Program-made: the position numbers and the translations under genes
Source of the DNA: Chloracidobacterium sp.
GTDB taxonomy: Bacteria; Acidobacteriota; Blastocatellia; Chloracidobacteriales; Chloracidobacteriaceae
Direction of reading: 5' to 3'
Length of the DNA stretch: 64,000 nucleotides
Assembly: GCA_025057975.1 (NCBI GenBank)
Contig: JANWUV010000015.1
Coordinates: 1 to 64,000 of the forward strand
The notes under the pieces: model-generated
Told to the model about the DNA's origin: nothing
Database searches by the model: none
What the model saw: the letters and a program-made list of their open reading frames with translations, nothing else
Part shown: positions 16,578-53,437 of the stretch, in pieces
Layout: each line of letters starts with the position of its first letter
Position numbering within the stretch: position 1 is the stretch's first letter

Positions 16578-16936
16578 TCCCCTGTTGTAGAGAACGCCAA
16601 GCGTCTGGCCGTTCACCTCGGCGGTGTTTTCTCAAAAAGTGCTACGACTCTTTGTGTGAAAGCCGGTTCCGCCTCGCACTTACTCCTGCTGGCTGACAAG
16701 CGTGCGAGAAACTTTCATTCTGCGCTGGCACGTTGTAGCCTGGCCTTATTCCTTGCCTTATTTGTTATTGCGTATCGTTGCCTTGCGCCGTCGCATGACG
16801 AAGCGGAGCGCCGCTTTTTCCGCAAGCTTGCCGGAACATTGTTCAGCTGGTTTTTCGGCTAGGGTTGACCGCGTACAAGCGGCGCGGCGTCGCTGTGGCG
16901 TGCGCTGGCCGCTGATTGTTACGCGAGGAGGAGTCC
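16578..16936. other. Intergenic region upstream of the CRISPR-Cas operon
   Basis: About 360 bases between the TIG/FG-GAP gene and cas6. It should carry the promoter of the cas operon, but no convincing -35/-10 pair stands out. There is no repeat-spacer structure here. Overlapping short frames at 16656-16968 lack ribosome sites and family features. Confidence 0.4.
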
Positions 16937-17968
16937 ATGGCCGGCCCAGCTTCACTGCCCAGCCTTGACATCGCACGCTATCGCTTCACGCTGCGTCCGC
17001 AACGTCCCACCATTTTGCCGGGCTACCCTGGCTCGATGCTGCGTGGGGCGTTTGGCTGGGCGCTTAAGCAGGCTGTCTGTGTTGTTGAACACGGCGAGTG
17101 TTCGCGCTGTATTCTGCGCGAGAGCTGTCATTACCCCTATTGGTTCGAAACCCCGTTTCCAGGGCATTTGCCACTGCGCAGCGGGAGCAAGGACGCGCCT
17201 GCACCGTTTCTGCTAGAGATTGCGCCGGCGGAGTACACGGCGCGGCCGACGCCGGAACACCCGCTTCAGTTTGGCATGACGCTGATTGGCGCGCGGGCGC
17301 AGGAGGCACTGAAATACGTCGTGCAAGCCGTCGCCGACTTGGGTAAGTCGGGACTGGGGCGTGACCGAACGCGCTTTCGCCTAACCGACGTACAGGCGGT
17401 GGACAGCGATGGCGCGCAGAACGGCCGGGCGACGGCGCGGCCGTTGTCCGCCGTCACGGCCGAACGGACGGCGACGCTGGCGACGGCGCGGCGCATCCGA
17501 GTGACGTTTGAAACGCCGACGCGCATCCGCGTGGCCGGCGACTTGCAGGCGGAAGTCAACTTTGCGCTGCTGGCGCGCAACCTGCTGCGGCGCGTCACGT
17601 TGCTGGCGGAAGTCCACGGCGCAGGGCGCGCCGACCTTGACGCCAAAGCCTTCCTCGCCGCCGCCGAGACCGTCCGTACCGAACAAAGCCTGCTCCGGTG
17701 GCTGGATTGGGAACGCTGGTCAAATCGTCAACGCGAAAACCTCAAGATGGGCGGTTTTTTGGGCGAAATCGTCTTCAGTGGGGATGCCTTGCCCGGATTT
17801 GCGCCATGGCTGGCGGCGGGCGAAGTGCTGCACGTCGGAACCGGAACGACTCTAGGCCTAGGCCGGATGCGCGTCGAGCCGCTGCTTGATGGAACGCAGG
17901 AAACAAGCGCCGCGCGGCGAACGAGCGGCCATGAAATCCTCCAACCCAAAGTAGGCGGAGAGCTATGA
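16937..17968 (+). CDS. cas6: Cas6-family CRISPR precursor RNA endoribonuclease
   Basis: RAMP-fold protein of 343 residues. The ATG at 16937 follows a strong GAGGAGGAG ribosome site, preferred over an upstream start at 16916. Cas6 features are an N-terminal RAMP domain with the PGYPGSMLRGAFGWAL segment, a small Cys group (about 50-70) like that of Cas6 proteins of this branch, and the C-terminal glycine-rich loop VGTGTTLGLGRMRVE. Cas6 cuts the CRISPR transcript within each repeat to give guide RNAs for the Cmr complex encoded next. It overlaps cmr2 by 4 bases, so it heads the operon. No array is in the window, so its substrate is transcribed elsewhere. Confidence 0.88.
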   Translation: MAGPASLPSLDIARYRFTLRPQRPTILPGYPGSMLRGAFGWALKQAVCVVEHGECSRCILRESCHYPYWFETPFPGHLPLRSGSKDAPAPFLLEIAPAEYTARPTPEHPLQFGMTLIGARAQEALKYVVQAVADLGKSGLGRDRTRFRLTDVQAVDSDGAQNGRATARPLSAVTAERTATLATARRIRVTFETPTRIRVAGDLQAEVNFALLARNLLRRVTLLAEVHGAGRADLDAKAFLAAAETVRTEQSLLRWLDWERWSNRQRENLKMGGFLGEIVFSGDALPGFAPWLAAGEVLHVGTGTTLGLGRMRVEPLLDGTQETSAARRTSGHEILQPKVGGEL

Positions 17969-19791
17969 CTGAAGCGGTCGTGATCATGGCGATTGGGCCG
18001 GTGCAGGGGTTCATTGCAGCGGCGCGGCGCAGTCGGGATTTGTGGTACGGCTCGTGGCTACTGAGCGAGTTGTCGAAAGCGGCGGCGCAGGCCGTGGCGG
18101 CGCGGGTCGGCGTCGGGGCGCTGATTTTTCCTGCGACTGATAACGAAAAAGATTTGCAGCCGGATTCATCGCTGAATGTGGCAAACAAGGTGGTGGCGCT
18201 GGTGCCGGCGGCGCAGGCGGCCGAGATCGCCGAAGCGGCTCGTGCGGCCGTGGCGACGCGCGTCAAGCAGCTTGCTGAAGAAGCCTTCGGGCACGTCAAG
18301 GGTCGCTTTGACCGCGACATTGCGCTCAAGCAGGTTGCCGATCTGCCGGAAGTCGTCTGGGCGACGGCCGAAGTGGCGGCGGACGGCTACGCGGCGGCGC
18401 GCGATCGCGCCGAGCGGGCGTTGGCGGCGCGTAAGTCGCTGCGGGATTTCGCGCCGGTCGGCGAATGGGGAAGCGTGCGGCCGAAGTCGTCGCTCGACGG
18501 GCTGCGCGAATCGGTGTTGCCGGAGCCGAAAGGTGAAGACGCCGCGAAACGGTACGAAAAGTATGGCGTCCGTGGAGGAGAACAGCTCTGCGGCGTGGGG
18601 CTGATGAAACGCCACGGGCAGCGCGGGCGCGGCGACCAGGCCGACCGTGTATGCAGCACGTCGCATGTGGCGGCGCTGCCCACGCTTGAGCAAATACCGG
18701 ATAACGAAGACGCGCGTCGGGCGGCGAGCGAGTTCTTCCGCGTGTTGCGTGAAGAGTTGGGATTGCCTGCGGAGGTCTTCGGCAAAACGCCATTCCCCCA
18801 TCCGGTCTTCGGCGACAGGGACGGCCGGTTGCTGTTTGAGAGCCGTTACGGAGAGTTCTTTGAAGACGAGCCGGATCGCGCCGAGCGCCGCCGAAAACAG
18901 GAAACGGCCGTCCGGGCGTTGAAGCGGTTTCTACGCGAGGCGGGCGTCAAAGCGCCGTATCCGTACTATGGGCTGTTGCTGGCGGACGGCGACCGAATGG
19001 GCGCGGCAATTGACGACTGCAAGACGCCGGAAGCGCACCGGAAACTCTCACGGGCGCTCGCCGACTTCGCCGGGAATACGCGGCGCATTGTTGAGGACGA
19101 CCATCGCGGCTCGCTCATTTACGCCGGAGGCGACGACGTGCTGGCCTACGTCCCGCTGCATACGGCGCTCGCATGCGCCAAGGCGCTCGCCGACGCTTTT
19201 CGCCAAAAGCTTGGCGGATTTCAAACCGCCGACGGCCAAGCGCCGACGCTGTCGGTCGGGCTGGCCGTGTCGCACCATCTCGACCCGCTGGAGGACGCCA
19301 TCCTGCGCGCGCGACGCGCGGAAGGCCGCGCCAAACAAACGCGCAATGCGCTCGCCATTGCCTTCGACAAACGCGGCGGCGTGGAAACGGTCGTCGGCGG
19401 CGAGTGGGGTAAGTTTGACGCACGGTTTGACCAACTGATTGCGCTCTATGCCGCAGGCGCGCTGGCGCATGGCGCGGCGTATGAGTTGCGGCGGCTGGCG
19501 CGTCAGCTTGACGAAAGAAACGCCGACGCCGAGTTTCGCACGGCGATTCGTCTGGAGGCGCTGCGCATACTGCAACGCAAGCGCGACCGGCGGGGAGCGC
19601 CCGTCAGCGTGGAGACGCTCCAAACGCTCGCGGCGGCTCTTGAGCAACAAAGCGTCGGCGCGCTGGCCGACGAACTGGTACTGGCGCGGGAGTTTGCGCG
19701 CCTGCGTAAACCTTCGCCGACGCCGGTCGCGTCCCCTTCCGCCGACGAACCGACCAGCGAGCAGGTGACGATGCGAGGAACCGAGCTATGA
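17965..19791 (+). CDS. cmr2: Cas10 (Cmr2), type III-B, lacking the HD nuclease domain
   Basis: 608 residues, the large subunit of the Cmr effector. It opens directly with the first palm domain (IGPVQGFIAAARRSRDLWYG, within the first 30 residues). The usual N-terminal HD nuclease domain, about 200 residues in the family, is missing, and no separate HD gene precedes it. The second palm keeps a DGDRMG motif (341-346) and the cyclase motif GGDD (388-391, in IYAGGDDVLAYVP). When target RNA is bound, such proteins make cyclic oligoadenylates from ATP. A helical C-terminal domain follows. Predicted: intact second-messenger synthesis, no HD-dependent DNA cleavage. It overlaps cas6 and cmr3 by 4 bases each. 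Confidence 0.92.
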   Translation: MTEAVVIMAIGPVQGFIAAARRSRDLWYGSWLLSELSKAAAQAVAARVGVGALIFPATDNEKDLQPDSSLNVANKVVALVPAAQAAEIAEAARAAVATRVKQLAEEAFGHVKGRFDRDIALKQVADLPEVVWATAEVAADGYAAARDRAERALAARKSLRDFAPVGEWGSVRPKSSLDGLRESVLPEPKGEDAAKRYEKYGVRGGEQLCGVGLMKRHGQRGRGDQADRVCSTSHVAALPTLEQIPDNEDARRAASEFFRVLREELGLPAEVFGKTPFPHPVFGDRDGRLLFESRYGEFFEDEPDRAERRRKQETAVRALKRFLREAGVKAPYPYYGLLLADGDRMGAAIDDCKTPEAHRKLSRALADFAGNTRRIVEDDHRGSLIYAGGDDVLAYVPLHTALACAKALADAFRQKLGGFQTADGQAPTLSVGLAVSHHLDPLEDAILRARRAEGRAKQTRNALAIAFDKRGGVETVVGGEWGKFDARFDQLIALYAAGALAHGAAYELRRLARQLDERNADAEFRTAIRLEALRILQRKRDRRGAPVSVETLQTLAAALEQQSVGALADELVLAREFARLRKPSPTPVASPSADEPTSEQVTMRGTEL

Positions 19792-20993
19792 CGGTGTGGA
19801 CGATTGAACCCCGCGACCCCATCATTTTTCGTGACGGACGGCCATTCGGCGCATGGGGCGGCGCGCGGGCGGCGTCGCTGCCCTTTCCGTTCCCCTCGAC
19901 CATTGCCGGGGGCGTCCGAACCCGCGCCTTCCTCAACGCCAAGGGACACTTTGACCCGGCGGCGCAGGGGCGTTCGCTGGACGACGTGCGGGCGCTGGCT
20001 GTTCGCGGGCCGTTTCTGGTCGAACTCGATGAGGCCGACCACATCCGCGAATGGCTTTTCCCCGCGCCGCTGGACGCCGTGGCGTGGGCGACCGTCCGGC
20101 AAGACCGGTTCGACATCAAGCGCCTGACGCCGCTTCAGTTGCCCCCCGGCGTCACGGTCAATCAGCCCGCCGACGCGCCACATCCGGTTGGGTTGGCCAC
20201 GCCGGTCAAGGGCAAACCGTCCGGCGACGCACCGCGCTACTGGCGCTGGGCGGCGCTTGAACGCTGGCTGACACAGGCGGGTGATTGGTCGGCGGTTGCG
20301 GCGGACGAGGTAGGCCACCACGGCCCCGTTCCCGAACAGCGAACTCACGTCGGCCTCGACCCAACGACGCTGACCGCCGACGAAGGCAGGCTGTTCCAAA
20401 CGCGCGGCCTCATTTTTACCGGCCGAACAGGCGACGGCGAACGGCGGCGGCTGGCGCTGGCCGTCCATGTGGCGGGCGGGGAAGGCATCCGTCCGGGGCC
20501 GGCGCCGCTGGGCGGCGAGCGGCGACTCGTCCACTGGCGAGCCGACAAGCAGGCGTTGCCGGCTTGTCCGAAGGCCGTGTCGGAAGCCGTCGTCAACGCG
20601 GGCGCGTGTCGGCTGGTGTTGGCGACGCCGGGCTACTTTGCCGCCGGGTGGCGGCCGGCAACCGAGACGCTCGCGGCCGGGGTGACGGGGCTGACTGTGA
20701 CGCTTGTCGGCGCGGCCGTCGGGCGGGCAGTCGTTGTTTCCGGCTGGGATTTTGAGCGCAACCAAGCCAAGCCGACCCGCCGGCTGGCACCCGCCGGAAG
20801 CGTGTATTTCCTACGCCTTGAGGGCTCTCCGGAAGCCCGCCGGGCGTGGCTCGACAAGATTTGGCTTCAACCCATCAGCGACGATGAACAAGCGCGCCGG
20901 GACGGTTTCGGCTGCGCGCTCGTCGGCGCGTGGGACGGCCAACCAACCCTGATGCAGGAGGAGCAGCCCGATGCGACGCACGCCAAGCTTTGA
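19788..20993 (+). CDS. cmr3: Type III-B RAMP protein Cmr3
   Basis: 401 residues. The N-terminus (TIEPRDPIIFRDGRPFGA) and the following FPFPSTIAGGVRTRAFL segment are typical of Cmr3 (Cas5-like RAMP), which caps the 5' handle end of the guide RNA next to Cas10. The C-terminal RAMP part ends with a glycine-containing VSGWDFERN/APAGSVYFLRL block. Overlaps of 4 bases with cmr2 and 23 bases with cmr1 indicate one transcript and coupled translation. Confidence 0.9.
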   Translation: MTVWTIEPRDPIIFRDGRPFGAWGGARAASLPFPFPSTIAGGVRTRAFLNAKGHFDPAAQGRSLDDVRALAVRGPFLVELDEADHIREWLFPAPLDAVAWATVRQDRFDIKRLTPLQLPPGVTVNQPADAPHPVGLATPVKGKPSGDAPRYWRWAALERWLTQAGDWSAVAADEVGHHGPVPEQRTHVGLDPTTLTADEGRLFQTRGLIFTGRTGDGERRRLALAVHVAGGEGIRPGPAPLGGERRLVHWRADKQALPACPKAVSEAVVNAGACRLVLATPGYFAAGWRPATETLAAGVTGLTVTLVGAAVGRAVVVSGWDFERNQAKPTRRLAPAGSVYFLRLEGSPEARRAWLDKIWLQPISDDEQARRDGFGCALVGAWDGQPTLMQEEQPDATHAKL

Positions 20994-22266
20994 ACCGCCG
21001 GCCATAACGAAGAACGACGCCAAGGTGTACGTTGAAACGCGCCGGTACAAACTCATCACGCCGTTGTTCGGCGGGGGCGTCGAGCCGCAGACGGCCGATC
21101 CTCTTACCGTCATCCGCGCCTCGGAAATCCGCGGCCACTTGCGTTTCTGGTGGCGCGCGACGCGCGGCGGGCAATACTCATCATTGGAGCGACTACAGGA
21201 GGCTGAAGCCAAGGCGCAAGGCGACAAGAAAAAAACCACGGCTTACGATTTGCTGCGTGACGCCGAGGGCGCGCTGTGGGGCGATACGGCAAGGCCGTCG
21301 CCGATTTCGATTGAAGTGAACGTCGTCCAGCCGGGACAACCGGAAGTCGCTTTTACCGTGAAGGGCAGCAAGCCCGAACCGTCGGCCAATGTCGCCGACT
21401 ATGCCGCTTTTCCTTTGCTCCCAACCGACGACGACCGGAAAAAGGCCGGCTGGCAATCCAAGCCGGTGCGGGTGGGCGTAGAGTTTACCGTCACATTCCG
21501 CATCGCGCGCGACGCCTACGAGCGACACAATGCCGATCTGGAAGCGGCCCTGTGGGCGTGGGAGACTTTCGGCGGCGTCGGTGGGCGGACACGCCGGGGC
21601 TTCGGCGCGCTTCAGCGCGTGGATGGCGGCGCAAAGCTGCGCGACAGGGACGGTATTGAGAAGTTCATCAGGGAAGGTTTTGCCAAGCACGTCGTTCCCG
21701 AACCGCCCGTCGCGGGTGTGCCGCATTTGACGCCGGAGCATCGGCTTTGGCGGCTGACTAAGAACGCTGCCGACAAACCCATCGAGGCTTGGAAAAGTCT
21801 TATCAAGAAGCTGAAAGACTTTCGGCAATACCGACTGGGCAAGGATGGCAAGCAAAGCGAGTACGGCAAATCCGTCTGGCCTGAGCCGGATGTGATTCGC
21901 AACGCCGTGAAGGGAAAGCGGGACGGTCAGGACCCGTCACCCTTCCCGCGCGCCGTCTTTGGGCTGCCCATTATTTTTCACTTTCCACAGGACAGAACGC
22001 CCGACGCCACGTTGGTCGGCACGGAACAAGATCGGTTGGCCAGCCCGTTGATTTTGCGCCCCATCGCCCTTGAGAAGGGAGCGGTTGGGCTGGCGCTTGT
22101 GTTGAGCACGCCGCGCCGGTTGCCTGATGGCTTACGGTTGGAGAGCGACAAAGGCGGCTACAGCGGGCCGGTCAGCGATCGTGGACTCACCAAAGCGGAA
22201 GCCCAGCAAGTAACACCTTTGAAAGGCAAGACTGACGTGTTGGAGGCTTTTCTTGATTGGGTTTGA
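20971..22266 (+). CDS. cmr1: Type III-B RAMP protein Cmr1
   Basis: 431 residues with the Cmr1 signature near the N-terminus: YKLITPLFGGGVEPQTADP followed by the VIRASEIRGHLRFWWRATRGG arginine-rich motif. The ALWAWETFGGVGGRTRRGFGAL glycine-rich loop closes the first RAMP fold, and a second RAMP-like half follows. Cmr1 sits at the 3' end of the guide RNA and helps capture target RNA. A gap of 436 bases with an inserted repeat separates it from cmr4, in contrast to the overlapping genes elsewhere in this operon. Confidence 0.92.
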   Translation: MRRTPSFEPPAITKNDAKVYVETRRYKLITPLFGGGVEPQTADPLTVIRASEIRGHLRFWWRATRGGQYSSLERLQEAEAKAQGDKKKTTAYDLLRDAEGALWGDTARPSPISIEVNVVQPGQPEVAFTVKGSKPEPSANVADYAAFPLLPTDDDRKKAGWQSKPVRVGVEFTVTFRIARDAYERHNADLEAALWAWETFGGVGGRTRRGFGALQRVDGGAKLRDRDGIEKFIREGFAKHVVPEPPVAGVPHLTPEHRLWRLTKNAADKPIEAWKSLIKKLKDFRQYRLGKDGKQSEYGKSVWPEPDVIRNAVKGKRDGQDPSPFPRAVFGLPIIFHFPQDRTPDATLVGTEQDRLASPLILRPIALEKGAVGLALVLSTPRRLPDGLRLESDKGGYSGPVSDRGLTKAEAQQVTPLKGKTDVLEAFLDWV

Positions 22267-22566: not shown

Positions 22567-22702
22567 GCTTGACGCCGCTCCACAACAGCGTATCGCTTCA
22601 TCAAAACAAGACATTTGGATGTCCTCATCAATGACATAGACGGCGTTGCGCGCAGCGAGACGCCGCCACCCTTCAAATCACACCACCACTTCGGAGGCAA
22701 TC

Positions 22703-23596
22703 ATGAGTTTCACCCGATTACTGTTGATGCACGCGCTGTCGCCGCTCCACGCCGGGACGGGGCAGGGCGTCGGCGTCATTGACCTACCGATTGCCCGCGA
22801 CAAAGCGACGGGTTTGCCTTACGTGCCCGGCTCGTCGGTCAAGGGCGTCTTGCGCGACGCCTGCCAAGCCAATGACGAGTGCAAGGAGCACACGTCGAAA
22901 ATCTTCGGCCCCGAAACCGACAACGCGAGCGACCATGCCGGGACGCTTCATCTCGCCGACCAGCGGCTGTTGCTGCTGCCGGTACGGAGCTTCGCCGGAA
23001 CCTTTGCGTGGACGACTTCACCGTACGTCCTGGCGCGTTTCGCCCGCGACGCGGCAGCGGCCGGGTTGACGACGCCGAGTCTGATAACAAACTTGAAATC
23101 AAACGGCCAAACGGCGCTGACGGCCACGGAAACCGTCCTGAAGGCGCAGGGTGAAACCATCGTCCTTGAAGACCTTGACCTCAACGGGCAGCCCGACCCG
23201 CGTGCAAGGGAATGGGCGGACTGGTTGAGTCAACGCCTGTTTCCCGACGCCGCAGCGTGGCGAGGCTGGTTGCGCGAGCGGCTGTGCGTCGTCAGCGACG
23301 ACGTGTTCAACTTTCTGGCCGAGACGGCGACGGAAACGACGGCGCGCATCCGGTTGGACGACGACGCCAAAACCGTTGCGGAAGGGGCGCTGTGGTACGA
23401 GGAGGCGCTGCCGGCGGAAAGCGTCCTGTACGGGTTGGCTGTCGCCGCGCCGGTGAAAAAGGCCGAACTGGAAGCCAACCTCATTTTTACCGTCTTGGGC
23501 AAGCTGACCGGCAACCCGCGCCAGTTTGGGGGTAAGGCGTCGGTCGGGCGCGGGTTGTGTCGGATGCAGCTTTGCGGGGTAGGGGAGGGCAAGTAG
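22703..23596 (+). CDS. cmr4: Type III-B backbone RAMP nuclease Cmr4
   Basis: 297 residues from the ATG at 22703, which follows a GGAGG ribosome site; an upstream start at 22646 would run through Arg-rich junk. Cmr4 (Cas7-like) forms the helical backbone on the guide RNA and cuts bound target RNA every six bases. The N-terminal block ALSPLHAGTGQGVGVIDLPI, with the family's catalytic Asp region (IDLPIARD), and the PGSSVKGVLRD motif are present. The C-terminal KASVGRGLCRM glycine loop completes the RAMP fold. It ends 2 bases before cmr5. Confidence 0.93.
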   Translation: MSFTRLLLMHALSPLHAGTGQGVGVIDLPIARDKATGLPYVPGSSVKGVLRDACQANDECKEHTSKIFGPETDNASDHAGTLHLADQRLLLLPVRSFAGTFAWTTSPYVLARFARDAAAAGLTTPSLITNLKSNGQTALTATETVLKAQGETIVLEDLDLNGQPDPRAREWADWLSQRLFPDAAAWRGWLRERLCVVSDDVFNFLAETATETTARIRLDDDAKTVAEGALWYEEALPAESVLYGLAVAAPVKKAELEANLIFTVLGKLTGNPRQFGGKASVGRGLCRMQLCGVGEGK

Positions 23597-23598
23597 CC

Positions 23599-23997
23599 AT
23601 GCAGACTCGTGATCAACGCTACGCGCGGCATGCGTACGAGCGCATCACCGCGCTCAGGGAGGCCAAGCTCGATCATAAGCGGTACGGCGTGTTGGCGCTC
23701 AAGCTGCCGGCGCTCATTCGGACGGCCGGGCTGGCGCAGGCGACGGCCTTTGTCGAGGCGCGCGGCAAGGCGGAAGGTAAACAACTACTCAAGGATTTGG
23801 CGGAAACGCTCGGCTTTCGTGAGTGGAACGCCTTTGGGCGTGAGATTCGGGAGTCAAACGTAATGACCTACCTTAGCCTGACGCGCCGGACGCTGGCCGC
23901 GCTGGTTTGGTACAAGCGGTTTGCCCAGTCGGTTCTGAATGTGAGCGGAACGGAGGGTTTCGACGATGAGCGGGAAGATGCTGGAGAGTCGGCGTAA
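23599..23997 (+). CDS. cmr5: Type III-B small subunit Cmr5
   Basis: 132 residues, mainly alpha-helical, matching the small subunit (Cas11-like) of Cmr complexes: an N-terminal RDQRYARHAYERI helix, the KRYGVLALKLPALIRTAGLAQA core and a C-terminal LSLTRRTLAALVWYKRFA segment. Cmr5 subunits stack along the Cmr4 filament and contact the target strand. The start at 23599 fits operon spacing; the frame extends upstream only through cmr4 sequence. It overlaps cmr6 by 32 bases. Confidence 0.9.
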   Translation: MQTRDQRYARHAYERITALREAKLDHKRYGVLALKLPALIRTAGLAQATAFVEARGKAEGKQLLKDLAETLGFREWNAFGREIRESNVMTYLSLTRRTLAALVWYKRFAQSVLNVSGTEGFDDEREDAGESA

Positions 23998-25036
23998 GGC
24001 GCTGCGCAATCTGGTCGCCGCCGGATGTACGCATTCGGGTCTGTGGTTTGACCGATTTCTGTCCGCCCAAAGAGCCGAAGAGGGCGGCGGTACTGGCGCG
24101 GCGACGGAGGCGGGCGACCAGCCGCGTACGGCGCTGGTCAAAGAAGTCGCCGCAATGAAGTCGCCGGCGCTTTATGCGGAATTTTTCACGCGATGGCGGG
24201 CGCAACTGGAAGCGTTTGGGGCGCAGATACGCGAGGCGGAAGTCACGGGGCGGCTCATTGTCGGTCTGGGCGCGGAGAGCGCGACGGAGACAAGCATTCA
24301 TCTGCACCGGACGTACGGCGTGCCGGTCATTCCCGGCAGCGCGCTCAAGGGGTTGGCGTCGGCTTATGCGCATCAACGGTTGGCGTCCGACGAGTGGAGG
24401 AAGTTGACGCAGGCACAGGCGCAGGGCGCAGCGCACCGCGTCATGTTCGGCTCGATGACGGACAAAGCGCCGGCGATGGGCTATGTGACGTTCTTTGACG
24501 CGCTCTGGATGCCGGACAGCGCCCGTGGTCCGCTGGCGGCGGATGTCATGTCGGTGCACCACGCGGCGTACTATCGCGGCGAGCATGCGCCGCCGGCGGA
24601 TTGGGACTCGCCGACGGTCGTGCCGTTTTTGACGGCGACAGGGAAGTTTCTCATCGCGTTGGCCGGCCCGGAAAAGTGGGTGGACGCCGCGTTTGAGTTG
24701 TTGGACGGCGCGTTGGCGGAGATGGGCGTTGGGGCGAAGACGACGGCCGGCTACGGGCGGATGACGCTGGGGAAAAAGCCCGAACCGCCGCCCGACCCAT
24801 CGCTGGAAGCGGCTGAGAAGATCATCGAGGCTGTGAACAGCCTACGACCTAACGAAGTCGCTAGTCAACTGCAGAAGAAATCCGAAGGCTGGTCAGCATT
24901 GCCGGACGGTTCGCCGGGGAAGTTGAAGGCGGCGCAGGTAATTGTTGAGAAGGCGCGAAGTTGGAAAGGCGCTAAAAAGCAGCCGTGGTTTCAGGAGATT
25001 TTGGCCTACTGTGACCGTTACGGGAAATCATCGTAA
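23966..25036 (+). CDS. cmr6: Type III-B RAMP protein Cmr6 with a C-terminal extension
   Basis: 356 residues, start supported by a GGAGGG ribosome site inside cmr5. The Cmr6 core includes GLGAESATETSIHLHRTYGV, PVIPGSALKGLASAYAH and the final MGVGAKTTAGYGRM loop at about 250-265. Cmr6 caps the 3' end of the Cmr4 filament. After the glycine loop, where many Cmr6 proteins end, about 90 more residues follow: a Pro-rich linker (KKPEPPPDPS) and a helical, Lys-rich tail. The extension may contact RNA or another subunit, but its role is not known. Confidence 0.9.
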   Translation: MSGKMLESRRKALRNLVAAGCTHSGLWFDRFLSAQRAEEGGGTGAATEAGDQPRTALVKEVAAMKSPALYAEFFTRWRAQLEAFGAQIREAEVTGRLIVGLGAESATETSIHLHRTYGVPVIPGSALKGLASAYAHQRLASDEWRKLTQAQAQGAAHRVMFGSMTDKAPAMGYVTFFDALWMPDSARGPLAADVMSVHHAAYYRGEHAPPADWDSPTVVPFLTATGKFLIALAGPEKWVDAAFELLDGALAEMGVGAKTTAGYGRMTLGKKPEPPPDPSLEAAEKIIEAVNSLRPNEVASQLQKKSEGWSALPDGSPGKLKAAQVIVEKARSWKGAKKQPWFQEILAYCDRYGKSS

Positions 25037-38788: not shown

Positions 38789-39374
38789 TCAGTCCCAGAT
38801 GTTGGCTAGATCGAGTATAAAGCCGGGCAGTTCGGGGTCGGCGGCGAGGCGTGTGAGGTTTTTTTCGAACACTGACGCGGCGGTTTGGACGATAGACGAA
38901 GACCGTTCGCGTGTACGGGTCAATCAACCAGCCCAGCCGCGCGCCGTTGGCGAGGTATTCGCGCATTTTGGCGTGGAGTTCGTCGAGTGTATCGCTTGGG
39001 GGACGCAGTTCGACGACGAAATCGGGACACAGGGGCGGGAAGCCGTCGAGGTCGGCCGGGGACAGCGTCGCCAGCCGCTCGTGGGGTACCCAAGCGGCGT
39101 CTGGGGATCGGATAGCGCCATTGGGGAGTTTGAAGCCGGTCGAGGAATCCACGGCGACGCCTCTTCCATCCTGTTGAGACCAGTTGCCAAGTTGGCGTGA
39201 CAATTCTTGATTGCGGCGTCCTGTGTTCCAGCCGGTCGGGGGCATAACAATGAGTTTTCCGGTGGCATCGCGCTCGATGCGCAGGTCGGGATGAAGCCGT
39301 GTGAAGGCTGCAAACTGGGCGTCGTCAAAGCCGGCGGTGGGTTTAGGGAGGCGGTGGGGCGTTGGGGCGGACAT
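38789..39374 (-). pseudogene. Second Uma2 copy, frameshifted near its C-terminus
   Basis: From the ATG at 39374 the protein follows the intact Uma2 copy (26277-26870) through NRRVSVRK. A T-run in the shared GTGAGGTTT context has seven T here and six in the other copy. The frame therefore shifts and runs on antisense to the 38316-38777 gene, down to 38433. In the original frame the next bases still encode ELPGFILDLANIWD and a stop at 38791-38789, matching the end of the intact copy. So the ancestral gene is 38789-39374 and the break is one homopolymer base: a recent mutation, slippage, or a sequencing error. The catalytic core lies before the shift. Confidence 0.8.
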
Positions 39375-39962: not shown

Positions 39963-40385
39963 ATGAAGTCGCTGACTGAGTATCTGACCTTCAACATTCC
40001 GTCTCGGATGGGTTTTGTGAACATTACGCCCCAGGTTGAGGCCATTGTCCGCCGGAGTGGGGTCAAGGAAGGGCTGGTGTTGTGCAACAGCATGCACATT
40101 ACGTCGAGTGTTTTCATCAACGACGACGAACACGGACTGCACCACGATTTCAGCGTCTGGTTGGAAAAGCTTGCCCCCTTCAACCCTGACCCCAACCATT
40201 ACCACCACAATCGCACCGGCGAGGACAATGCTGACGCCCACCTCAAGCGCCAGATCATGGGGCGCGAAGTCGTGGTGGCGATTACAAATGGGCGGCTTGA
40301 CTTTGGCCCGTGGGAGCAAATCTTCTACGGCGAGTTTGATGGCCGCCGGCCCAAACGGGTGCTTGTCAAGGTGATTGGCGAGTAA
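39963..40385 (+). CDS. YjbQ (UPF0047) family protein
   Basis: 140 residues with the family pattern: [22 protein letters not shown], the [16 protein letters not shown] block, [13 protein letters not shown], and the [35 protein letters not shown] ending (quoted in part: [22 protein letters not shown]). Histidines in MHIT and in NHYHHN line the presumed active site. Some members can replace thiamin-phosphate synthase when overproduced, but the natural role is unsettled. The 3' end overlaps the convergent cobB gene by 20 bases. Confidence 0.9.
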
Positions 40386-41787
40386 CAGTTTGCACGCGGT
40401 CGCGCCATAGCCGGCAGTGGGCGACGAAGCTGGCTGCGAGTCCTTGATCCTGCCCGAAGTGAATGTGAATGTAGCTCGCGTGCAAATTGTCCTGTGCGAA
40501 GCCTTCCGCGCGCGGCGTCTCCGCCGCCTGACGCGGCAGGACTTCGTACGCCGGCCGGTCGGCGGGGCGACCCTCCCATTGCGAGTAATGGAACTCATGC
40601 CCGCGGAGGCGCTGCCCCGCCCGTCCCAGCAGACCGTCGCGCGCAAGCGCAACTTCGCGGTAGCCCATGGTGAGGCACGTTGCCATCTGGCACACGCCGG
40701 GGAGCAGCCCCGCCATCGGCCATGCGCGGCCGTCCACATCAACGGCTTCGGCGAGGTACATCAGCCCTCCACACTCGGCGTAGATCGGCATCCCCTGCCG
40801 ATGTGCGGCCTGCACGGCGGCGCGCATCGGCGCATTGGCGCTCAGGTATTGAGCGTAGAGTTCGGGGTAGCCGCCGCCGAAGTACAGGCCGGAAACATCG
40901 TCCGGCAACATCACGTCGCGCAGAGGGCTGAAAAAGACCGTCTCCGCGCCGTGCCGACGTAAGGCGTCTAGGTTGTCCTCGTAGTAAAAGCAGAAAGCTT
41001 CATCGCGGGCGATGCCAATTCGAACCGGCGGCCATTCTATGGAAGCGGACGACGCGCCAACGTCGGACGCATCCGGCGTGAGCGGCGGAGCGGACTCCGC
41101 CAGTCTCAGTAGAGCTTCCAAATCAAGATAACGCGCCATGGCTTCGCGCGCCGCCGCGAGAAACTTCTCGACCGCCTGCGGCCGCTCGGCGACCGTCAGT
41201 AGTCCCAAGTGGCGCTCGGGGATTGTGAGATCAGGCAGACGCGGGAGACAGCCCAGCACCGGCACGCCGTACCGCTCAATAGCCTCGCGCAGCCAAGCGG
41301 CGTGACGCTCGCCGCCGACGCGGTTACAGATGACGCCCGCGATACTGACCTTTGGCATAAACGTGTGAAAGCCGTGGACGACGGCGGCGGCGCTGACCGA
41401 CATACAAGCGCAGTCCACGACGAGGATGACCGGCGCTTCCAGCAGTTGGGCTATTTGCGCCGTACTGCCGTCGAGCGGTTCGGCGTCTGCTCCATCGAAA
41501 AAGCCCATGACGCCTTCAATGACGCTGAGTTGCGCATCGGCGGCGGCCTGTGAGAAGGCGCGCCGGACAGCTTCAGGCGGGAGCATCCAGGCGTCAAGGT
41601 TGCGCGACGGGCGGCCCGTCGCGGCGGTGTGGTACATGGGGTCAATGTAGTCGGGTCCGACCTTGAAGCCTTGTACGCGCAGGCGTTGCGCAAAGGCCGC
41701 CATCAAGCCAGTCGCCACCGTACTTTTTCCGCTGCCGCTGGACGGCGCGGCGATGATGAGTCGCGGCGCGTGAAACAAGGCTTTCAA
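40366..41787 (-). CDS. cobB: Cobyrinate a,c-diamide synthase (CobB/CbiA)
   Basis: 473 residues. It amidates the a and c side chains of cobyrinic acid with glutamine and ATP in corrinoid synthesis. The N-terminal synthetase domain has the P-loop [15 protein letters not shown] and the [12 protein letters not shown] motif. The C-terminal class I glutamine amidotransferase domain has the nucleophile Cys in [12 protein letters not shown] and a His in the GHEFHYS block. In the aerobic route the product is the substrate of CobN; the same enzyme also acts on hydrogenobyrinate. The gene is read leftward and is the last of a series that includes the DUF1874 gene and cobO. Confidence 0.93.
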
Positions 41788-41799
41788 AAATGTGCTTCC

Positions 41800-41883
41800 C
41801 TAACGACCGCCAGTCCTAGCTGCGCGCGCTTGAATCGCGTGGTGAAGCTCGTCTGGTAAATTACGAATGGTCATCGTTGGCAT
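41800..41883 (-). pseudogene. Truncated FitA/VapB-like ribbon-helix-helix antitoxin fragment
   Basis: A 27-codon frame with a good AGGAGA ribosome site. It reads MPTMTIRNLPDELHHAIQAR and then AARTGGR before a TAG. This matches the N-terminal strand and first helix of Arc/FitA-type ribbon-helix-helix antitoxins (TIRNLPDELHHALKxRAA). Full-length members continue for about 50 more residues with a toxin-binding tail, which is absent. No PIN toxin gene is adjacent. I interpret it as the remnant of a toxin-antitoxin pair lying between cobB and the DUF1874 gene. Confidence 0.65.
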
Positions 41884-41909: not shown

Positions 41910-42254
41910 CTATTCAAGCCGGGTCAGCAAGCCAAGTTCGTAGCCGATAGCCTCAAGTTCAGTCTCCGACAAAATCGCCCCTTCGGGCGGACGGTCTTTC
42001 AGGCGGAAGACGATCGCCTGCTCGCCGACCTGTTGCGTGATGGCGATGCGGTTGACCGGTACCTCGACGCCGAGCAAGCGTGTCAGCAACTTCGCCGTCG
42101 CCGCATGGCCAATCGCCGACCGCAACTGGACCCCATTTGATTGGCTGTACGTCACCAGTCGTCGGGCGTCCTCAATTGTGAGCGGTTCGTAGCGGTAAAG
42201 TCCATAGGCGGTCAGGATGCTAGCGTTGATGAGCAAAATACAGGGCGGCTCCAT
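41910..42254 (-). CDS. DUF1874 (Crn2/AcrIII-1-like) putative cyclic tetra-adenylate ring nuclease
   Basis: 114 residues from the ATG at 42254; the frame extends to 42305 but family similarity starts at CILLINASIL. DUF1874 (STIV B116-like) proteins include viral AcrIII-1 and bacterial Crn2, which cut cyclic tetra-adenylate and switch off type III CRISPR signalling. The three functionally important positions are present: His50 in the SAIGHAAT motif, and Arg88 and Glu91 in KDRPPEG. The remaining family pattern (EVPVNRIAITQQVG, the ILSETELEAIGYELG helix) is also there. It sits between cobB and cobO on the same strand, 17 kb from the Cmr operon. No ribosome site is obvious. A former phage or plasmid origin is possible. 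Confidence 0.85.
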   Translation of the reverse strand: MEPPCILLINASILTAYGLYRYEPLTIEDARRLVTYSQSNGVQLRSAIGHAATAKLLTRLLGVEVPVNRIAITQQVGEQAIVFRLKDRPPEGAILSETELEAIGYELGLLTRLE

Positions 42255-42326: not shown

Positions 42327-42968
42327 TTAAAAGTCAACGCCCGGCTGCGCTTTGACGCCGGCGCGAAAGGGATGCTTGACCAGCTTCATTTCAGTCACGA
42401 GGTCAGCCATCTCAATGAGTTCCGGGCGGGCGCTGCGCCCGGTGACAACTACATGCAGTTCTGGGCGCTTTTGGCGCAAGGCCGTCAAGACGACCTCAAG
42501 CGGCAAGGTATCGTCCCGCAGGACGATGTTCAGTTCATCTAGAACCACTAGCGCGTAGCTGGGATCGGCCATTAGTTCACAGGCCTTAGCCCACGCGCGT
42601 TCGGCGGCGGCGCGGTCGCGCGCGCGGTCCTGGGTTTCCCACGTAAAACCTTCGCCAAGCGCAAAAAAATCCACTCGACCGGCGAGTTCGCGGGCAAAGG
42701 CAGCTTCCCCGCTGGTCCGTGCACCCTTCGTGAACTGGACGACGGCGACGCGCATACCATGACCCAGGGCCCGAAAAACCATCCCTAGCGCTGCGGTTGT
42801 TTTGCCCTTCCCGGTCCCGGTGTGAACGATAATGAGACCTTTTTCTTGTGTCGCCCGCGCAAGGCGGGCGTCTTGGATGGCTTTTTTCCGAGCCATCCGC
42901 TCGCGATGACGGGCGTCGGCATCAATTTGGCTTGTCTTGGAAGGCGTGGCGGTTGGCTCATTGGTCAT
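42327..42968 (-). CDS. cobO: Cob(I)yrinic acid a,c-diamide adenosyltransferase (CobO/BtuR/CobA type)
   Basis: 213 residues. It transfers the adenosyl group of ATP to reduced corrinoids, giving the coenzyme form, in synthesis and in salvage. The P-loop is IVHTGTGKGKTTAALGM, followed by VVQFTKGA. Later conserved segments are EGFTWETQD, the VVLDELNIVLRDDTLPLEVV block and the C-terminal VTGRSARPELIEMADLVTEM. The N-terminus overlaps the end of the AbiEii-like gene by 11 bases. The gene order (toxin-like gene, cobO, DUF1874, antitoxin fragment, cobB) suggests that mobile genes were inserted into or around a corrinoid operon. Confidence 0.93.
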   Translation of the reverse strand: MTNEPTATPSKTSQIDADARHRERMARKKAIQDARLARATQEKGLIIVHTGTGKGKTTAALGMVFRALGHGMRVAVVQFTKGARTSGEAAFARELAGRVDFFALGEGFTWETQDRARDRAAAERAWAKACELMADPSYALVVLDELNIVLRDDTLPLEVVLTALRQKRPELHVVVTGRSARPELIEMADLVTEMKLVKHPFRAGVKAQPGVDF

Positions 42969-43644
42969 ACGGCTGCTCGTCGGGTGATAGGCGGGTTGAC
43001 TTCCTGGGGATCAACGGCAAATGGGCAACCCGCGCTGCTGCAGCGATGAGCTTTTGTCTCACGGTCGCCGGAAGCGTAGCCAAGTCACCCCCCTCAAAGT
43101 AGGCCAGCGCCTTGAGGCTCTCCATCGGTTGGAAAGCGTCGCCCCAAAGAGCGCGCGCCGCCGCCAACCCTACCGCTAGGTCAACACCGGCGTCGAGCAG
43201 GGCGGCCACATCCAAGTAGTCCTTGGATGAAATACGCTGGAGCATTACTTTGAGCTTGCTCGCCATGAGATCTTCCAAAGATGCGACCCATGCTACGCCG
43301 TCGGCTGTTAGGCTTGGCTCGCCGACGCGCCCGAAGCCTATCCCGCCAAAAAACGAGACCTTCACCGTATCGCAGCGAGCAGTGTCCGGTGACGCCAACA
43401 CTGTGAGCGTTTCTGGGCGATCTTGAATAACGAGGCTGCGCTTCAACCATGGCAAGGCGGCGCGGAGACGTTTTCGGTCAAGCGGCTGGTCGGTGAAGAA
43501 ATCGAAGTCAACCGAGACGCGGTGGCCTAGCCACAGGGTGATTGCGGTGCCACCGTACAGGACGTAGCGCAGACCGGCGCAGGGCGCAAGTTGCGGCCAG
43601 AGCGCCAGTTGGGCCGGCAGCAGCTGGTCAAGGCGCGGCGTCAT
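42958..43644 (-). CDS. AbiEii/AbiGii-type nucleotidyltransferase (putative toxin)
   Basis: 228 residues of the nucleotidyltransferase superfamily. The motif GGTAITLWLGHRVSVDFDFF carries the GG, the Arg-x-Ser-x-Asp and the second Asp expected at the metal site of AbiEii toxins (type IV toxin-antitoxin and phage defence). The segment LEDLMASKLKVMLQRISSKDYLDVAALL is also typical. AbiEii enzymes add nucleotides to tRNA or similar targets and stop growth. The start overlaps the upstream 94-residue gene by 4 bases, as in a two-gene module. The upstream partner is not a classic AbiEi antitoxin, so toxin-antitoxin function is inferred. Confidence 0.82.
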   Translation of the reverse strand: MTPRLDQLLPAQLALWPQLAPCAGLRYVLYGGTAITLWLGHRVSVDFDFFTDQPLDRKRLRAALPWLKRSLVIQDRPETLTVLASPDTARCDTVKVSFFGGIGFGRVGEPSLTADGVAWVASLEDLMASKLKVMLQRISSKDYLDVAALLDAGVDLAVGLAAARALWGDAFQPMESLKALAYFEGGDLATLPATVRQKLIAAAARVAHLPLIPRKSTRLSPDEQPYDQ

Positions 43645-48593: not shown

Positions 48594-49508
48594 TCAGGGC
48601 AGCGCGTTGACCGCTTGCACGATCTCCAGAACAGCGTCGGCCGTATGGTGTGACACTGTCCGCAGCGCCCGCGACGGCAGGGCAATGACGCGCTTCCGCC
48701 GGACGGCGCTCAGCGCCGCTAGTTGCGTATCATTCAACAACCGTTCCCGAAAGCCAGCGTCGGACGCAAAGCCGGTCGCTACAAAAATCACATCCGGGTC
48801 AAGCTTCAGGAGCGCCTCGGCGGAAAGCGTCGCGTTGCCCGTCAGGCCGGCGTCCGCCGCTGCGTTACGCAGCCCCGCTGCCGTCAACTTGACGTCACCC
48901 ATGGTGTCCCGCCCGGCGACCACTAGTGGCGGCGCGACATAGAGCGCCCGCAGGCCCACCCGGTCGGAACGCAGCGCCGCACGCGCCTGCGCCAGTTTGG
49001 CCCGCATGTTAGCGATGACCGCCTCGGCGCGCGCTTCCTCGCCGACCGCCCGCCCAATCCGCCGAATGTTGCCCTCAATGTCGGCCAGAGAGCGGAAGTC
49101 CTCGACGACAAGCGTCGGCGTCCCGGTCTGCTCGACCGCCCGCCGCAACTCCGCCTTCGTGTAACGCGCGAGCAGAACCAAATCCGCCCGCAGCGCCAGA
49201 ATCCGCTCCGGGTCGCGCTCCACAAATACGCTGATGCGCCGGGCAAGCTCCGCGACATAACTCGCCTCCGGGTCGGGAGCGTACTTCGACAACGCGACAA
49301 TCCGCTCCGGCTCAACCAGCGCGCACAGGATTTCATCCGTCCCAATCGAAAGCGACGCCACGCGCTGCGGTTTTGTTACGCGCGTTTGCTCCACCGCCTT
49401 TTCCCCAGTCGGTCGCGGAGCGCCGACCTGACAACCCTCCGTTGTCCAGACAACAACGGCGAGCGCGCCGGCCGCCGCCACACAGGGTGTTCTCATCCGC
49501 TCTCTCAT
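48594..49508 (-). CDS. BtuF-like periplasmic corrinoid or metal-chelate binding protein
   Basis: 304 residues. An N-terminal signal peptide (about 1-27) ends near TTEGC, a possible lipoprotein cysteine. The rest is the two-lobed fold with a helical backbone used by ABC importers for cobalamin, heme or siderophores: RVASLSIGTDEILCALVEPERIVAL, the DLVLLARYTKAELRR lobe and PDVIFVATGF. In BtuF it delivers cobalamin to BtuCD; these permease genes are not in the window. The start overlaps cobN by 4 bases. That coupling points to a corrinoid, or to cobalt, as the ligand. Confidence 0.8.
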   Translation of the reverse strand: MRERMRTPCVAAAGALAVVVWTTEGCQVGAPRPTGEKAVEQTRVTKPQRVASLSIGTDEILCALVEPERIVALSKYAPDPEASYVAELARRISVFVERDPERILALRADLVLLARYTKAELRRAVEQTGTPTLVVEDFRSLADIEGNIRRIGRAVGEEARAEAVIANMRAKLAQARAALRSDRVGLRALYVAPPLVVAGRDTMGDVKLTAAGLRNAAADAGLTGNATLSAEALLKLDPDVIFVATGFASDAGFRERLLNDTQLAALSAVRRKRVIALPSRALRTVSHHTADAVLEIVQAVNALP

Positions 49509-52500
49509 CCGGCGCTTCCCTCCCCCCGACGGTGCGCCAAGTTCTCTTCGGCCGCTGCCCGAATTGCCTCAAGCCGCGCCGTCATGGCCTCCGGTGGTTG
49601 CGCCCACAGCCCCCGACGCACAGCCTCAAGCAAGCGCGCCGCGATGTCGCGTTGCGCCCACGGATTGCTGCGCTGCAGGAACGCAGCCGTCGTCTCGTCA
49701 AACAAGTACGCCTCGGCGACGCGCTCGTACATCCAGTCCTCAACCAGCCCGGTCAGCGCACTGTAGCCAAACAGGTAATCTACCGTCGCCGCCATTTCGA
49801 GCGCCCCCTTGTAGCCGTGTTCCTGCATGGCTTGTAGCCACTTCGGGTTGGTAACGCGCGCCCGTACGACACGGCGCAACTCGTCTTGAAGCGTGCGGAC
49901 ACGCGGGCGCGTCGGATCAGCTGAATCGCCAAACAGCGTCACCGGCGCTGCGCCCCGGAGACTGCGCACCGCCGCCGCCATCCCACCGTGAAACTGCATG
50001 TAATCGTCGCTGTCGAGAATGTCATGCTCGCGGTTATCCTGATTCTGAACGGCGACCTCGCAGGCCGCCAACTGCGCGGCGAATACGTCTTCGGCGGGCG
50101 CGCCGTACGCCCCGTTGGCGTAGGCGTAGCCGCTCCAGCGCAGGTAAATCGCTGCCAGGTCCTCGCGCGATTCCCATGCGCCTTCCGTAATGGCCGAAAG
50201 AATGCCGACGCCGTACACGCCCGGCTGGTTGGAAAAGAGCCGAAAACGCGCGCGCCGGCGGGCCTCGTCCGGCGACTCGCCGGCCGCCAGTCGGCGGGCT
50301 TCATCGGCGCGGACGCGCTTGCGTACGGCGTTCCACTCATCGGGTTCGTCAGCGTCCGCCGCCAAGTTGACAGCTTCATCCAGCAACGCCAGCACATTTG
50401 GAAAAGCGTCGCGGAAAAAGCCGGAGACGCGCATCACCACGTCCACGCGAGGACGCCGGAGGGTTTCAACCGGCAAGAGCTTGAGTCCCGCCAAGCGCCG
50501 GTTCCCCACCTGCCAAACTGGCTCGACGCCCAACAGCCACAACGCCTGCGCTACGTCGTCGCCCTGCGTCCGCATGTTGGATGTCCCCCACAGCGTCAGT
50601 CCGACGACTTCCGGGAAGCGCCCCTGTTGGCGAACATAGGTCGTCAGCAGGGCGTCGCCCAATCGCCGTCCGACCTGCCAGGCGAAAGGCGACGGAACGG
50701 CGCGGATGTCCACGGCGTAGAAGTTGCGTCCCGTCGGCAGAATGTCCGGCGTCCCGCGCGTCGGCGCGCCGGAAGGTCCCGGCGGCACGGCGCGTCCGTC
50801 GAGGCCGGCCAGAAGGTTCGTGATCTCGTCCGGGGTTTGCCGGAGACGCGGGACAATATCCTCCGCCAGATACGTCAGCACACACCGCATCGCCGACGCC
50901 GCTTCAGGCGGCGACGGTAGGGCGACGGCCGCCGGGTCGAAGTTGCGCTCGACAAGTTCCTGAACCAGGCGTCGCACAGCGGCGTCAAGCGCGCGGCGCA
51001 GCCTCCCAACGCTCGTCATAGGCGCGTCATCAAAACCCGCCAGCCACGGCGGCGTCGCCTCCGGCGGCCATGGCGCGTCACTGGGACGGTCAAAGATGTC
51101 CTCCGGCAGCCCCAAATCGCGCGCCAACGCCGCCGGCAGTCCCAGTCGGGGCGGCGTCGTCTGCCGCGCCAGCGCGCAGAGCATGTCCGTCAGCCGATCG
51201 CCGGCCGGCGCTTCGCCGAAGACATGCAAACCGTGACGAATCTGTATCTCGCCAAGGTCGCAGAGGTAGCCGTCCAGCTTCTTCAGAAACGCGCCGATTT
51301 CATCCTCATCGGGACGGATTTCATAGCCGAGATCGCGGTGGAGATGGGCGGCGACCACCGCCTCCCAAATAGCGTCAATGATGAGCGGACGTTTTTCCGG
51401 GTCGAGTTGGTCGGCGCGGGCCAACTCGGTCAAGAGCGCCTGCAACGGGGCTAACTCGCCTTCACGGTCAACTTCCGCCTGCGTCATCGGCGGCGGCAGA
51501 TGGCTGACGATGCAAGCATGCCACCGCCGCTTCGCCTGCAATCCCTCGCCCGGATCGCCGACCAGAAACGGGTAAAACACCGGCGTATCCGTCAGAACAA
51601 GCTGCGGATAACAACCGCCGGACAACCCCAGCGCCTTGCCCGGCAGCCACTCCGCCGTGCCGTGCTTGCCGCAGTGGATGACGGCGTCCGCGCCAAACAC
51701 GTCGCGCAGCCAGTGATAGACGGCCAAGTAGTGATGCGGCGGGACGAGTTCTCCGCTGTGGTAAAGCGCCTGCGTGTTGTCGCCATAGCCGCGCGGCGGC
51801 TGGATCATCACCAACACGTTCCCGTAGCGCCGCGCAGCAATGTAGCCCACCTCCCCCGCCGTCATGACCGTACCGGGCGGCTCACCCCACGTCGCCCGCA
51901 ATTGTGCTTGGTTGTCGGGCGGCAGCGCGGCGAACCACGCGCGGTAATCATCCGCCCGGTATTGCGCAAAAGCGTGTGCAGCCTGTTCTTCGGACAACGC
52001 CGGCGCTTCGTAGCCGCCCTGCGCCAGTAACTCGCCCATCAGAGCGTCGCCAGTCGGCGGCAGGTCGCCGACCGTATAGCCCGCGTCGCGTAACGCGCGC
52101 AGGATGTTCAGCACCGACGCCGGCGTATCGAGACCGACAGCGCTCCCGACGCGCCCGTTGCGGTTGGCGAAGTTAGTCAGCACAATCGCCAATCGCTTCT
52201 CGGCGTTCGGCCGGTCGCGCAGCCTTGCCCACCGGACAGCCAGCCGCGCCACGGCGTCAGCCTGTTCGGGAAGCGCCGCCAGACGCGCGCCGGCCGCGTC
52301 CGACTCGCGCGCGCCAACGACCGTCGTGATGATGCGCCCGTCAAATTCCGCCATGACGACCTTCATCGCGGCGTCAAGCGGCGTCAGTCCCTGGGCGCTC
52401 GCGCGCCAGTCGGCGACGGTTTCGCCGCTGGTGATCGCCTGAATGACCGGGATGCCTAGCGCGTGCAGCGCCTCGGCCGCGCCGCCTGTGGCGTACGTCA

Positions 52501-53437
52501 GCCGCTCCGTACGTGCGAGGTCGGCGACGGCGTAGCTCAGCAGGCTGACAATGACGTGAACGCGCGGGCGGCCGTTGTCGCTGAAGTAGCGCGCGAAGAT
52601 GTCCGGCAAGCCGTCGGCGCGTTCTTTCTCATCGCGCAGGCTGTAGCAAAACACCGGCAGGACGTTGCCGCCCGCCGCCTCGACGGCCGAAATGAGCGCG
52701 TCCACAACGGCTAAATCGCCGCTTTGCCAGTAAGCGCGATAAAACGCCACCCCGACGGCCGGACGGTCGGAACGCCAGTAAGCACGCTGGAAGTCGGCGA
52801 CCGGCATCCGCGCCGTCGCGTCTCGGTCGGTCGCTTGCGGGTGGTACAGCCCCGTCAAGGGTGCTTCCTGCGGCGGCGCAAAGCCAAACGTTGTTCCCAA
52901 CAGGCGGTCGGCCGTGTAGCACAACGCCTGCGCGTAGTTTTCGACACCGCCCGCGGTACAGTACGCCAACAATCGCTCAACCACATCCACACCGACGGTT
53001 GAGCGCGCAAGCAACGCCGCATCGGAACGGCTGTCGCCCGGAAGCGCGACAACGCGGCAGCCGGTTTCACGGTGCAATTGGTCAAGCCGGTCAAAACCTT
53101 CCGCAAAGTAGGCGACGCCGCCCAAAATCCGGGCAATGACGATCTTGGCTGTCGGCGCAATGTCGGCAAGAAACCGGTCAAGGTCGGCCGTCCGCTGGAG
53201 CGCCCGCAGTGTTTGTGTCTGTACGACCGGGAAATTTTGCGGCAACCGCTTTCGGGCTTCGGCGACCAGACGCAGTTCCGTGTCGGACGCCGAGATGAAC
53301 ACGATGTCCGGTTTGGCGGCGTAAAGCTTGGTTGTATGGTCGTCCCGGCAGCCTGTCGCAACAGCAGGTTCGCAGGTGAAGGCGAGTTTGTTGTTGAGTG
53401 GCGCGTCGTTGTCGGTTGATGGATGGTAAAAGCCCAT
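49505..53437 (-). CDS. cobN: Cobaltochelatase large subunit CobN
   Basis: 1310 residues of the CobN/BchH family. The family blocks are IARILGGVAYFAEGFDRLDQL, a LPGDSRSDAAL segment, KHGTAEWLPGKALGLSGGCY, the DPGEGLQAKRR motif and the C-terminal VDYLFGYSALTGLVEDWMYE. The features fit CobN (cobalt insertion into hydrogenobyrinate a,c-diamide) better than the magnesium-chelatase BchH: the N-terminal region and overlap with a btuF-like gene point that way. CobN needs an AAA+ motor (CobST or BchID-like), which is not in the window. The start at 53437 has only a weak ribosome site. A 20-bp motif repeated upstream of the pirin gene lies 48 bases before it. Confidence 0.92.
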   Translation of the reverse strand: MGFYHPSTDNDAPLNNKLAFTCEPAVATGCRDDHTTKLYAAKPDIVFISASDTELRLVAEARKRLPQNFPVVQTQTLRALQRTADLDRFLADIAPTAKIVIARILGGVAYFAEGFDRLDQLHRETGCRVVALPGDSRSDAALLARSTVGVDVVERLLAYCTAGGVENYAQALCYTADRLLGTTFGFAPPQEAPLTGLYHPQATDRDATARMPVADFQRAYWRSDRPAVGVAFYRAYWQSGDLAVVDALISAVEAAGGNVLPVFCYSLRDEKERADGLPDIFARYFSDNGRPRVHVIVSLLSYAVADLARTERLTYATGGAAEALHALGIPVIQAITSGETVADWRASAQGLTPLDAAMKVVMAEFDGRIITTVVGARESDAAGARLAALPEQADAVARLAVRWARLRDRPNAEKRLAIVLTNFANRNGRVGSAVGLDTPASVLNILRALRDAGYTVGDLPPTGDALMGELLAQGGYEAPALSEEQAAHAFAQYRADDYRAWFAALPPDNQAQLRATWGEPPGTVMTAGEVGYIAARRYGNVLVMIQPPRGYGDNTQALYHSGELVPPHHYLAVYHWLRDVFGADAVIHCGKHGTAEWLPGKALGLSGGCYPQLVLTDTPVFYPFLVGDPGEGLQAKRRWHACIVSHLPPPMTQAEVDREGELAPLQALLTELARADQLDPEKRPLIIDAIWEAVVAAHLHRDLGYEIRPDEDEIGAFLKKLDGYLCDLGEIQIRHGLHVFGEAPAGDRLTDMLCALARQTTPPRLGLPAALARDLGLPEDIFDRPSDAPWPPEATPPWLAGFDDAPMTSVGRLRRALDAAVRRLVQELVERNFDPAAVALPSPPEAASAMRCVLTYLAEDIVPRLRQTPDEITNLLAGLDGRAVPPGPSGAPTRGTPDILPTGRNFYAVDIRAVPSPFAWQVGRRLGDALLTTYVRQQGRFPEVVGLTLWGTSNMRTQGDDVAQALWLLGVEPVWQVGNRRLAGLKLLPVETLRRPRVDVVMRVSGFFRDAFPNVLALLDEAVNLAADADEPDEWNAVRKRVRADEARRLAAGESPDEARRRARFRLFSNQPGVYGVGILSAITEGAWESREDLAAIYLRWSGYAYANGAYGAPAEDVFAAQLAACEVAVQNQDNREHDILDSDDYMQFHGGMAAAVRSLRGAAPVTLFGDSADPTRPRVRTLQDELRRVVRARVTNPKWLQAMQEHGYKGALEMAATVDYLFGYSALTGLVEDWMYERVAEAYLFDETTAAFLQRSNPWAQRDIAARLLEAVRRGLWAQPPEAMTARLEAIRAAAEENLAHRRGEGSAG

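Follow-up and report, generated by a model that had tools for sequence, protein, structure and literature searches.

A DUF1874 protein encoded within the cobalamin gene block of Chloracidobacterium as a probable Crn2-like ring nuclease acting in trans

To begin at the locus, the stretch analysed here (the window) comprised 64,000 nucleotides of a Chloracidobacterium sp. genome (GCA_025057975.1, contig JANWUV010000015.1), in which a gene on the reverse strand (41910..42254) encoded a 114-aa DUF1874 protein, a candidate Crn2-like ring nuclease. As an earlier note drawn from the letters alone had placed it, the gene was found outside the cas operon, between cobB (cobyrinic acid a,c-diamide synthase, 40366..41787, reverse strand; NCBIfam NF002204, E 4e-163) and cobO/cobA (cob(I)yrinic acid a,c-diamide adenosyltransferase, 42327..42968, reverse strand; NCBIfam NF004637 / TIGR00708). 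The window also harboured a type III-B operon on the forward strand (16916-25036), ordered as cas6 (16916..17968; PF10040 and PADLOC), cas10/cmr2 (17965..19791; TIGR02577, E 2.2e-63), cmr3 (19788..20993; PF09700), cmr1 (20971..22266; PADLOC Cmr1), cmr4 (22646..23596; PADLOC Cmr4), a cmr5 candidate (23557..23997) and cmr6 (23966..25036; PADLOC Cmr6). The cmr5 candidate was assigned by its place between cmr4 and cmr6 and by BLASTP relatives at the same place of the cmr operon in related genomes. The GGDD motif noted earlier in Cas10/Cmr2 was present at residues 388-391, and an HD motif was not found in this protein. The distance of 17 kb to Cas10 given in the earlier note had to be corrected, as the DUF1874 gene lay 22.1 kb from the end of cas10 (19791) and 16.9 kb from the end of cmr6. 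Directly downstream of cmr6, an ORF related to the bacteriocin fulvocin C (NF033852, 25113-25808) presented an N-terminal hydrophobic segment.

The DUF1874 protein matched the family PF08960 (STIV_B116-like/DUF1874) with an E-value of 2.1e-27 and 95.7 bits against a Pfam cut-off of 26, covering positions 2-101 of the 101 in the profile, and is thus a member of this family. It was the only copy in the whole assembly (3.52 Mb, 86 contigs), the genome being searched family by family. The residues H50, R88 and E91, claimed beforehand as the functional positions of Crn2/AcrIII-1 enzymes, were all present in what proved to be a real ORF, and the alignment showed them to be invariant within the genus and nearly invariant across 29 family members. 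We take H50 to be the general acid of the ring nuclease, and R88 and E91 to be further active-site residues. In particular, H50 aligned with H495 of Csx1-Crn2, the residue changed to Ala in the cA4-bound structure 8y7g. Sequence matches to solved structures involved AFV3-109 (7.7e-18), STIV B116 and Csx1-Crn2, together with a weak match to AcrIII-1. Moreover, an AlphaFold monomer model built from six orthologues (pLDDT 86, pTM 0.78) was compared with known structures by VIA-align, giving a Z of 17.0 for AFV3-109 (2j6b; 1.6 Å over 104), 15.0 for the cA4-bound Csx1-Crn2 (8y7g) and 14.3 for AcrIII-1 (6scf), while the first unrelated row had a Z of 2.7, so that the predicted fold is that of AcrIII-1/AFV3-109.

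PADLOC named the same protein Csx16 (PDLC01147, E 5.8e-29), a label that was not matched by any Csx16 family from Pfam, where PF08960 was the only hit, or from NCBIfam, where no family was assigned. Therefore, this PADLOC model seems to span DUF1874 proteins; it appears to cover DUF1874/Crn2 proteins and could mislead surveys. The PADLOC match standing alone, Csx16 was not adopted as the identity of the protein. Csx16 itself, which acts as a ring nuclease on cA4, resembles 2J6B distantly in fold (PMC12409355).

The DUF1874 gene was carried by five of the seven genomes of the genus, each from a different species, and in all five it appeared between cobO and cobB. The conserved order of the block was cobN (cobaltochelatase; in the window 49505..53437, reverse strand; PF02514), a periplasmic binding protein that is BtuF-like by context (48594..49508, reverse strand; PF01497), cobO, DUF1874, cobB and UPF0047. 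The insertions around DUF1874 differed by species, with a methyltransferase-like gene in G001 and G005, two genes in G006, and in the window's genome a remnant of 24 codons between DUF1874 and cobB (~41799..41873, reverse strand; MTIRNLPDELHHAIQARAARTGGR-stop), read directly from the sequence, which in our judgement may resemble an RHH antitoxin. This remnant and an AbiEii-type ORF beyond cobO (42958-43644) agree in part with the decayed toxin-antitoxin surroundings described earlier, while the immediate neighbours are cob genes. The region is flanked by two Uma2-family genes (PF05685) that closely resemble each other, at 26277-26870 and 38433-39374, the second of which runs on into an unrelated long reading frame.

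The five DUF1874 proteins of the genus formed a single clade (support 99/98). Between the window's genome and its close relative G003, the dN/dS of the gene was ~0.06, at a near-saturated dS, and was similar to or below that of cobO and cobB; in most comparisons among the five species, synonymous sites had reached or approached saturation. The gene is under purifying selection. Furthermore, three of the relatives are two-contig genomes, in each of which DUF1874 sits on the contig of ~1 Mb; in G001 and G005 the large contig carries the Cas10 loci, and DUF1874 does not share a contig with any Cas10. The presence of cobB matched that of DUF1874 exactly, both being absent from the drafts G002 and G004. 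As C. thermophilum is devoid of most B12 synthesis genes and needs external B12 (PMC4376005), the cob block probably serves salvage.

With regard to the partners available to a ring nuclease, the ORFs tested around the III-B operon of the window included none recognisable as a CARF gene. A second III-B locus was found on another contig (C2), with a Cas10 carrying GGDD and a CARF-HEPN protein, the latter being Csx1-like according to PADLOC and presenting Csm6-type HEPN domains according to Pfam, which could point to cA6 as its activator. On a further contig (C4), two CRISPR arrays (147 repeat intervals) were accompanied by cas1, by another CARF-HEPN protein, which has an RxxxxH motif, and by a CARF5/NE0113 protein standing on its own. 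Thus, the genome has at least two CARF-HEPN effectors and, with the CARF5 protein, three recognised CARF proteins, none of them in the window's operon, in line with the search for CARF effectors that the earlier note proposed. A weak 'Cas10' match on contig C3 was rejected, as it had no PADLOC match and looked like a generic cyclase-type domain. With two GGDD-bearing Cas10 proteins of predicted cyclase activity, CARF effectors and CRISPR arrays, the genome offers the setting expected for a host Crn2.

Within the genus, Cas10 was found in exactly the five carriers of DUF1874. Since cobB shows the same pattern, this co-occurrence was not counted as evidence, and the links of DUF1874 to Cas10 and to cobB are confounded and cannot be separated at this level. 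Across the class, DUF1874 was present in 12 of 162 Blastocatellia genomes, and Cas10 was detected in 11 of these 12. Outside the genus, six of the seven Blastocatellia genes (those of G093, which is Pyrinomonas, and of G343, G263, G407, G434 and G499) lay among type III CRISPR genes or next to them, several of them adjoining a CARF gene; in G434 the link was to a CRISPR array and to a gene called CARF-like on its sequence only, Cas10 being encoded on other contigs. The remaining one (G416) was away from CRISPR genes in an 86% complete genome in which Cas10 was not detected. In a phylum sample of 396 Acidobacteriota genomes, Cas10 exceeded the cut-off in all seven DUF1874 carriers vs. 83 of the 396 overall, with a hypergeometric P-value of 1.4e-5, uncorrected for kinship; collapsed to genera at a loose cut-off, the P-value was ~0.02. 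The cob linkage was examined within Acidobacteriota. A pattern scan of genome contigs gave at least five loci, a lower bound given the narrow patterns used.

Taken together, we consider it probable that the DUF1874 protein is a host Crn2 ring nuclease standing apart from CRISPR loci, which would cut cA4 in trans and has been inherited vertically within the cob block. On recognition of foreign RNA by either III-B complex, the GGDD cyclase of Cas10 would make cyclic oligoadenylate, which would activate the CARF-HEPN ribonucleases. A DUF1874 homodimer, expected from the family, would then enclose cA4 and cut it by means of H50 as general acid together with R88 and E91, and the removal of cA4 would turn the effectors off, so that the cell could recover. 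The protein would exert this action from the conserved cobalamin block, presumably in use with these Cmr systems. Of the two origins that had been left side by side beforehand, a host Crn2 or a captured anti-CRISPR, the first is favoured by synteny, the genus clade, selection, the type III-linked relatives and the CARF-HEPN effectors, and a long-inherited off-switch acting at a distance is most likely, rather than a recent viral anti-CRISPR. The proposal that the off-switch was recruited for the Cmr system of the window is favoured as regards the off-switch but is too specific as regards its partner, because there are two III-B loci and the CARF genes lie at the other locus and near the arrays.

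The site itself raises the alternative that the protein takes part, with the cob block, in corrinoid or nucleotide metabolism, or couples B12 state to cyclic oligoadenylate signalling, with CRISPR not being its main partner. DUF1874 always lies between cobO and cobB, even where genes have been inserted on either side, and tracks cobB as exactly as it tracks Cas10 in the genus. Furthermore, in G003 the only III-B locus detected (contig C59, 1-8445; L049) was decayed, with Cas10 spread over several frames and large internal deletions that take about 110 residues from Cmr4 and about 290 from the CARF-HEPN protein, while DUF1874 was intact elsewhere in the genome; the decay may be recent, a contig may be missing, or the protein may have another function. 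On the other hand, the nearest relatives in the class are mostly within or beside type III operons and next to CARF genes, all the catalytic residues of a cA4 ring nuclease are retained, a tight operon is at odds with the insertions that in some species part DUF1874 from cobO or cobB, and the search of 38-55 kb against Rfam gave no cobalamin riboswitch. A main role in cob metabolism is therefore judged unlikely. A functional tie between the ring nuclease and the B12 salvage block is possible, its support being synteny, and the more explicit version, in which co-expression with the corrinoid genes would link cyclic oligoadenylate or other cyclic-nucleotide signalling to vitamin-B12 status, is given little credence; the bacteria concerned are relatives of C. 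thermophilum, which depends on an outside supply of B12 (PMC4376005). Under the host Crn2 reading, the gene would have split from an ancestral CRISPR-linked copy, and its location among cob genes would carry no functional meaning.

Another origin of the gene would be an anti-CRISPR (AcrIII-1) that the chromosome captured from a virus or plasmid and that is now a remnant with no host role. DUF1874 relatives were present in forty phage or virus records, mostly of archaeal viruses and Fusobacterium phages, with identities up to 54% (50% for the closest phage relatives), and in five plasmids, one of which had the gene adjoining CRISPR genes; scans of viral contigs returned four relatives by an alignment-based search and none by a sequence-only search. 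The family is commoner in phages than in host CRISPR loci, and Crn2 is regarded as viral in origin and taken up by hosts (PMC12409355). The comparison with viral and bacterial homologues suggested in the earlier note recovered the well-supported genus clade, while the deep nodes of the tree mixed viral and cellular forms and were not resolved; the tree was accordingly left aside for the question of viral or cellular origin, and an ancient viral origin is possible. Against capture, the gene holds a single syntenic site in five species, most comparisons of which show saturated or nearly saturated synonymous sites, it evolves under purifying selection, every catalytic residue is kept, unlike what a remnant would be expected to show, and, generic radical SAM matches aside, none of ten neighbouring proteins gave a phage-specific family, nor was any tRNA gene found in the window. 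A recent viral capture is not supported, and a remnant of this kind seems improbable. The most parsimonious history is that a CRISPR-linked gene moved into the cob block, or was gained with it, in the common ancestor of these five, with the direction of the move relative to the CRISPR locus being one that we infer. Finally, a sponge for cyclic oligoadenylate, or a ring nuclease for cA3, cA6 or a CBASS signal instead of cA4, would fit the Csm6-type HEPN domains of one CARF-HEPN protein and the broader range shown by Crn4 (PMC12830947), and is very improbable given that Crn2/AcrIII-1 enzymes are described as cA4-specific (PMC12409355) and that the catalytic residues are kept.

Compared with the known systems, the candidate shares with Csx1-Crn2 the Pfam family, the predicted fold and the alignment of H50 to H495, and differs from it in not being fused to an effector. 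It also resembles host Crn2 in being encoded by a host gene, in a genome that has both type III CRISPR and CARF-HEPN effectors, whereas its gene lies outside the CRISPR operons, fixed in the cobalamin block at 22 kb from the nearest Cas10, and in two relatives (G001 and G005) on a contig free of any Cas10. Because of this cobO-cobB site in five species and the distance to Cas10, the candidate would work like Crn2 while falling outside the strict, locus-associated definition of Crn2. With AcrIII-1 (SIRV1 gp29; AFV3-109 and STIV B116) it shares family, fold and catalytic residues, but viral forms are encoded by a virus or mobile element, while this gene is chromosomal, vertically inherited, in a genus clade of its own and has no recognisable phage neighbours.

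The DUF1874 family and its chemistry are already known, its members mostly as viral anti-CRISPRs; new are the conserved placement away from CRISPR genes and the set of Blastocatellia copies. Crn2 had been found in only seven loci, in a survey range of 6 kbp around type III loci (PMC12409355), and thus cases such as the DUF1874 gene of the cob block would be missed. A host copy kept for long at a non-CRISPR site, together with the six type III-linked copies of the class, suggests that host ring nucleases acting in trans are undercounted. The gene is also a natural case in which to ask if several type III systems share a single off-switch, and for what reason DUF1874 persists in a species whose only detected III-B locus has decayed. 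Among the type III loci of the class, the DUF1874 copy of G263 (L041:8016-8255) has lost its catalytic His motif through an internal deletion and carries Ala instead of the Glu, and reads as a degenerate ring nuclease. The Pyrinomonas locus (L039:8744-16662) presented two very large genes (1008 and 1634 aa) after CARF and DUF1874, and a contig filed under Candidatus Parcubacteria (RFKD01000004.1, L056) had type III genes nearly identical to those of Pyrinomonas, being probably a misbinned contig.
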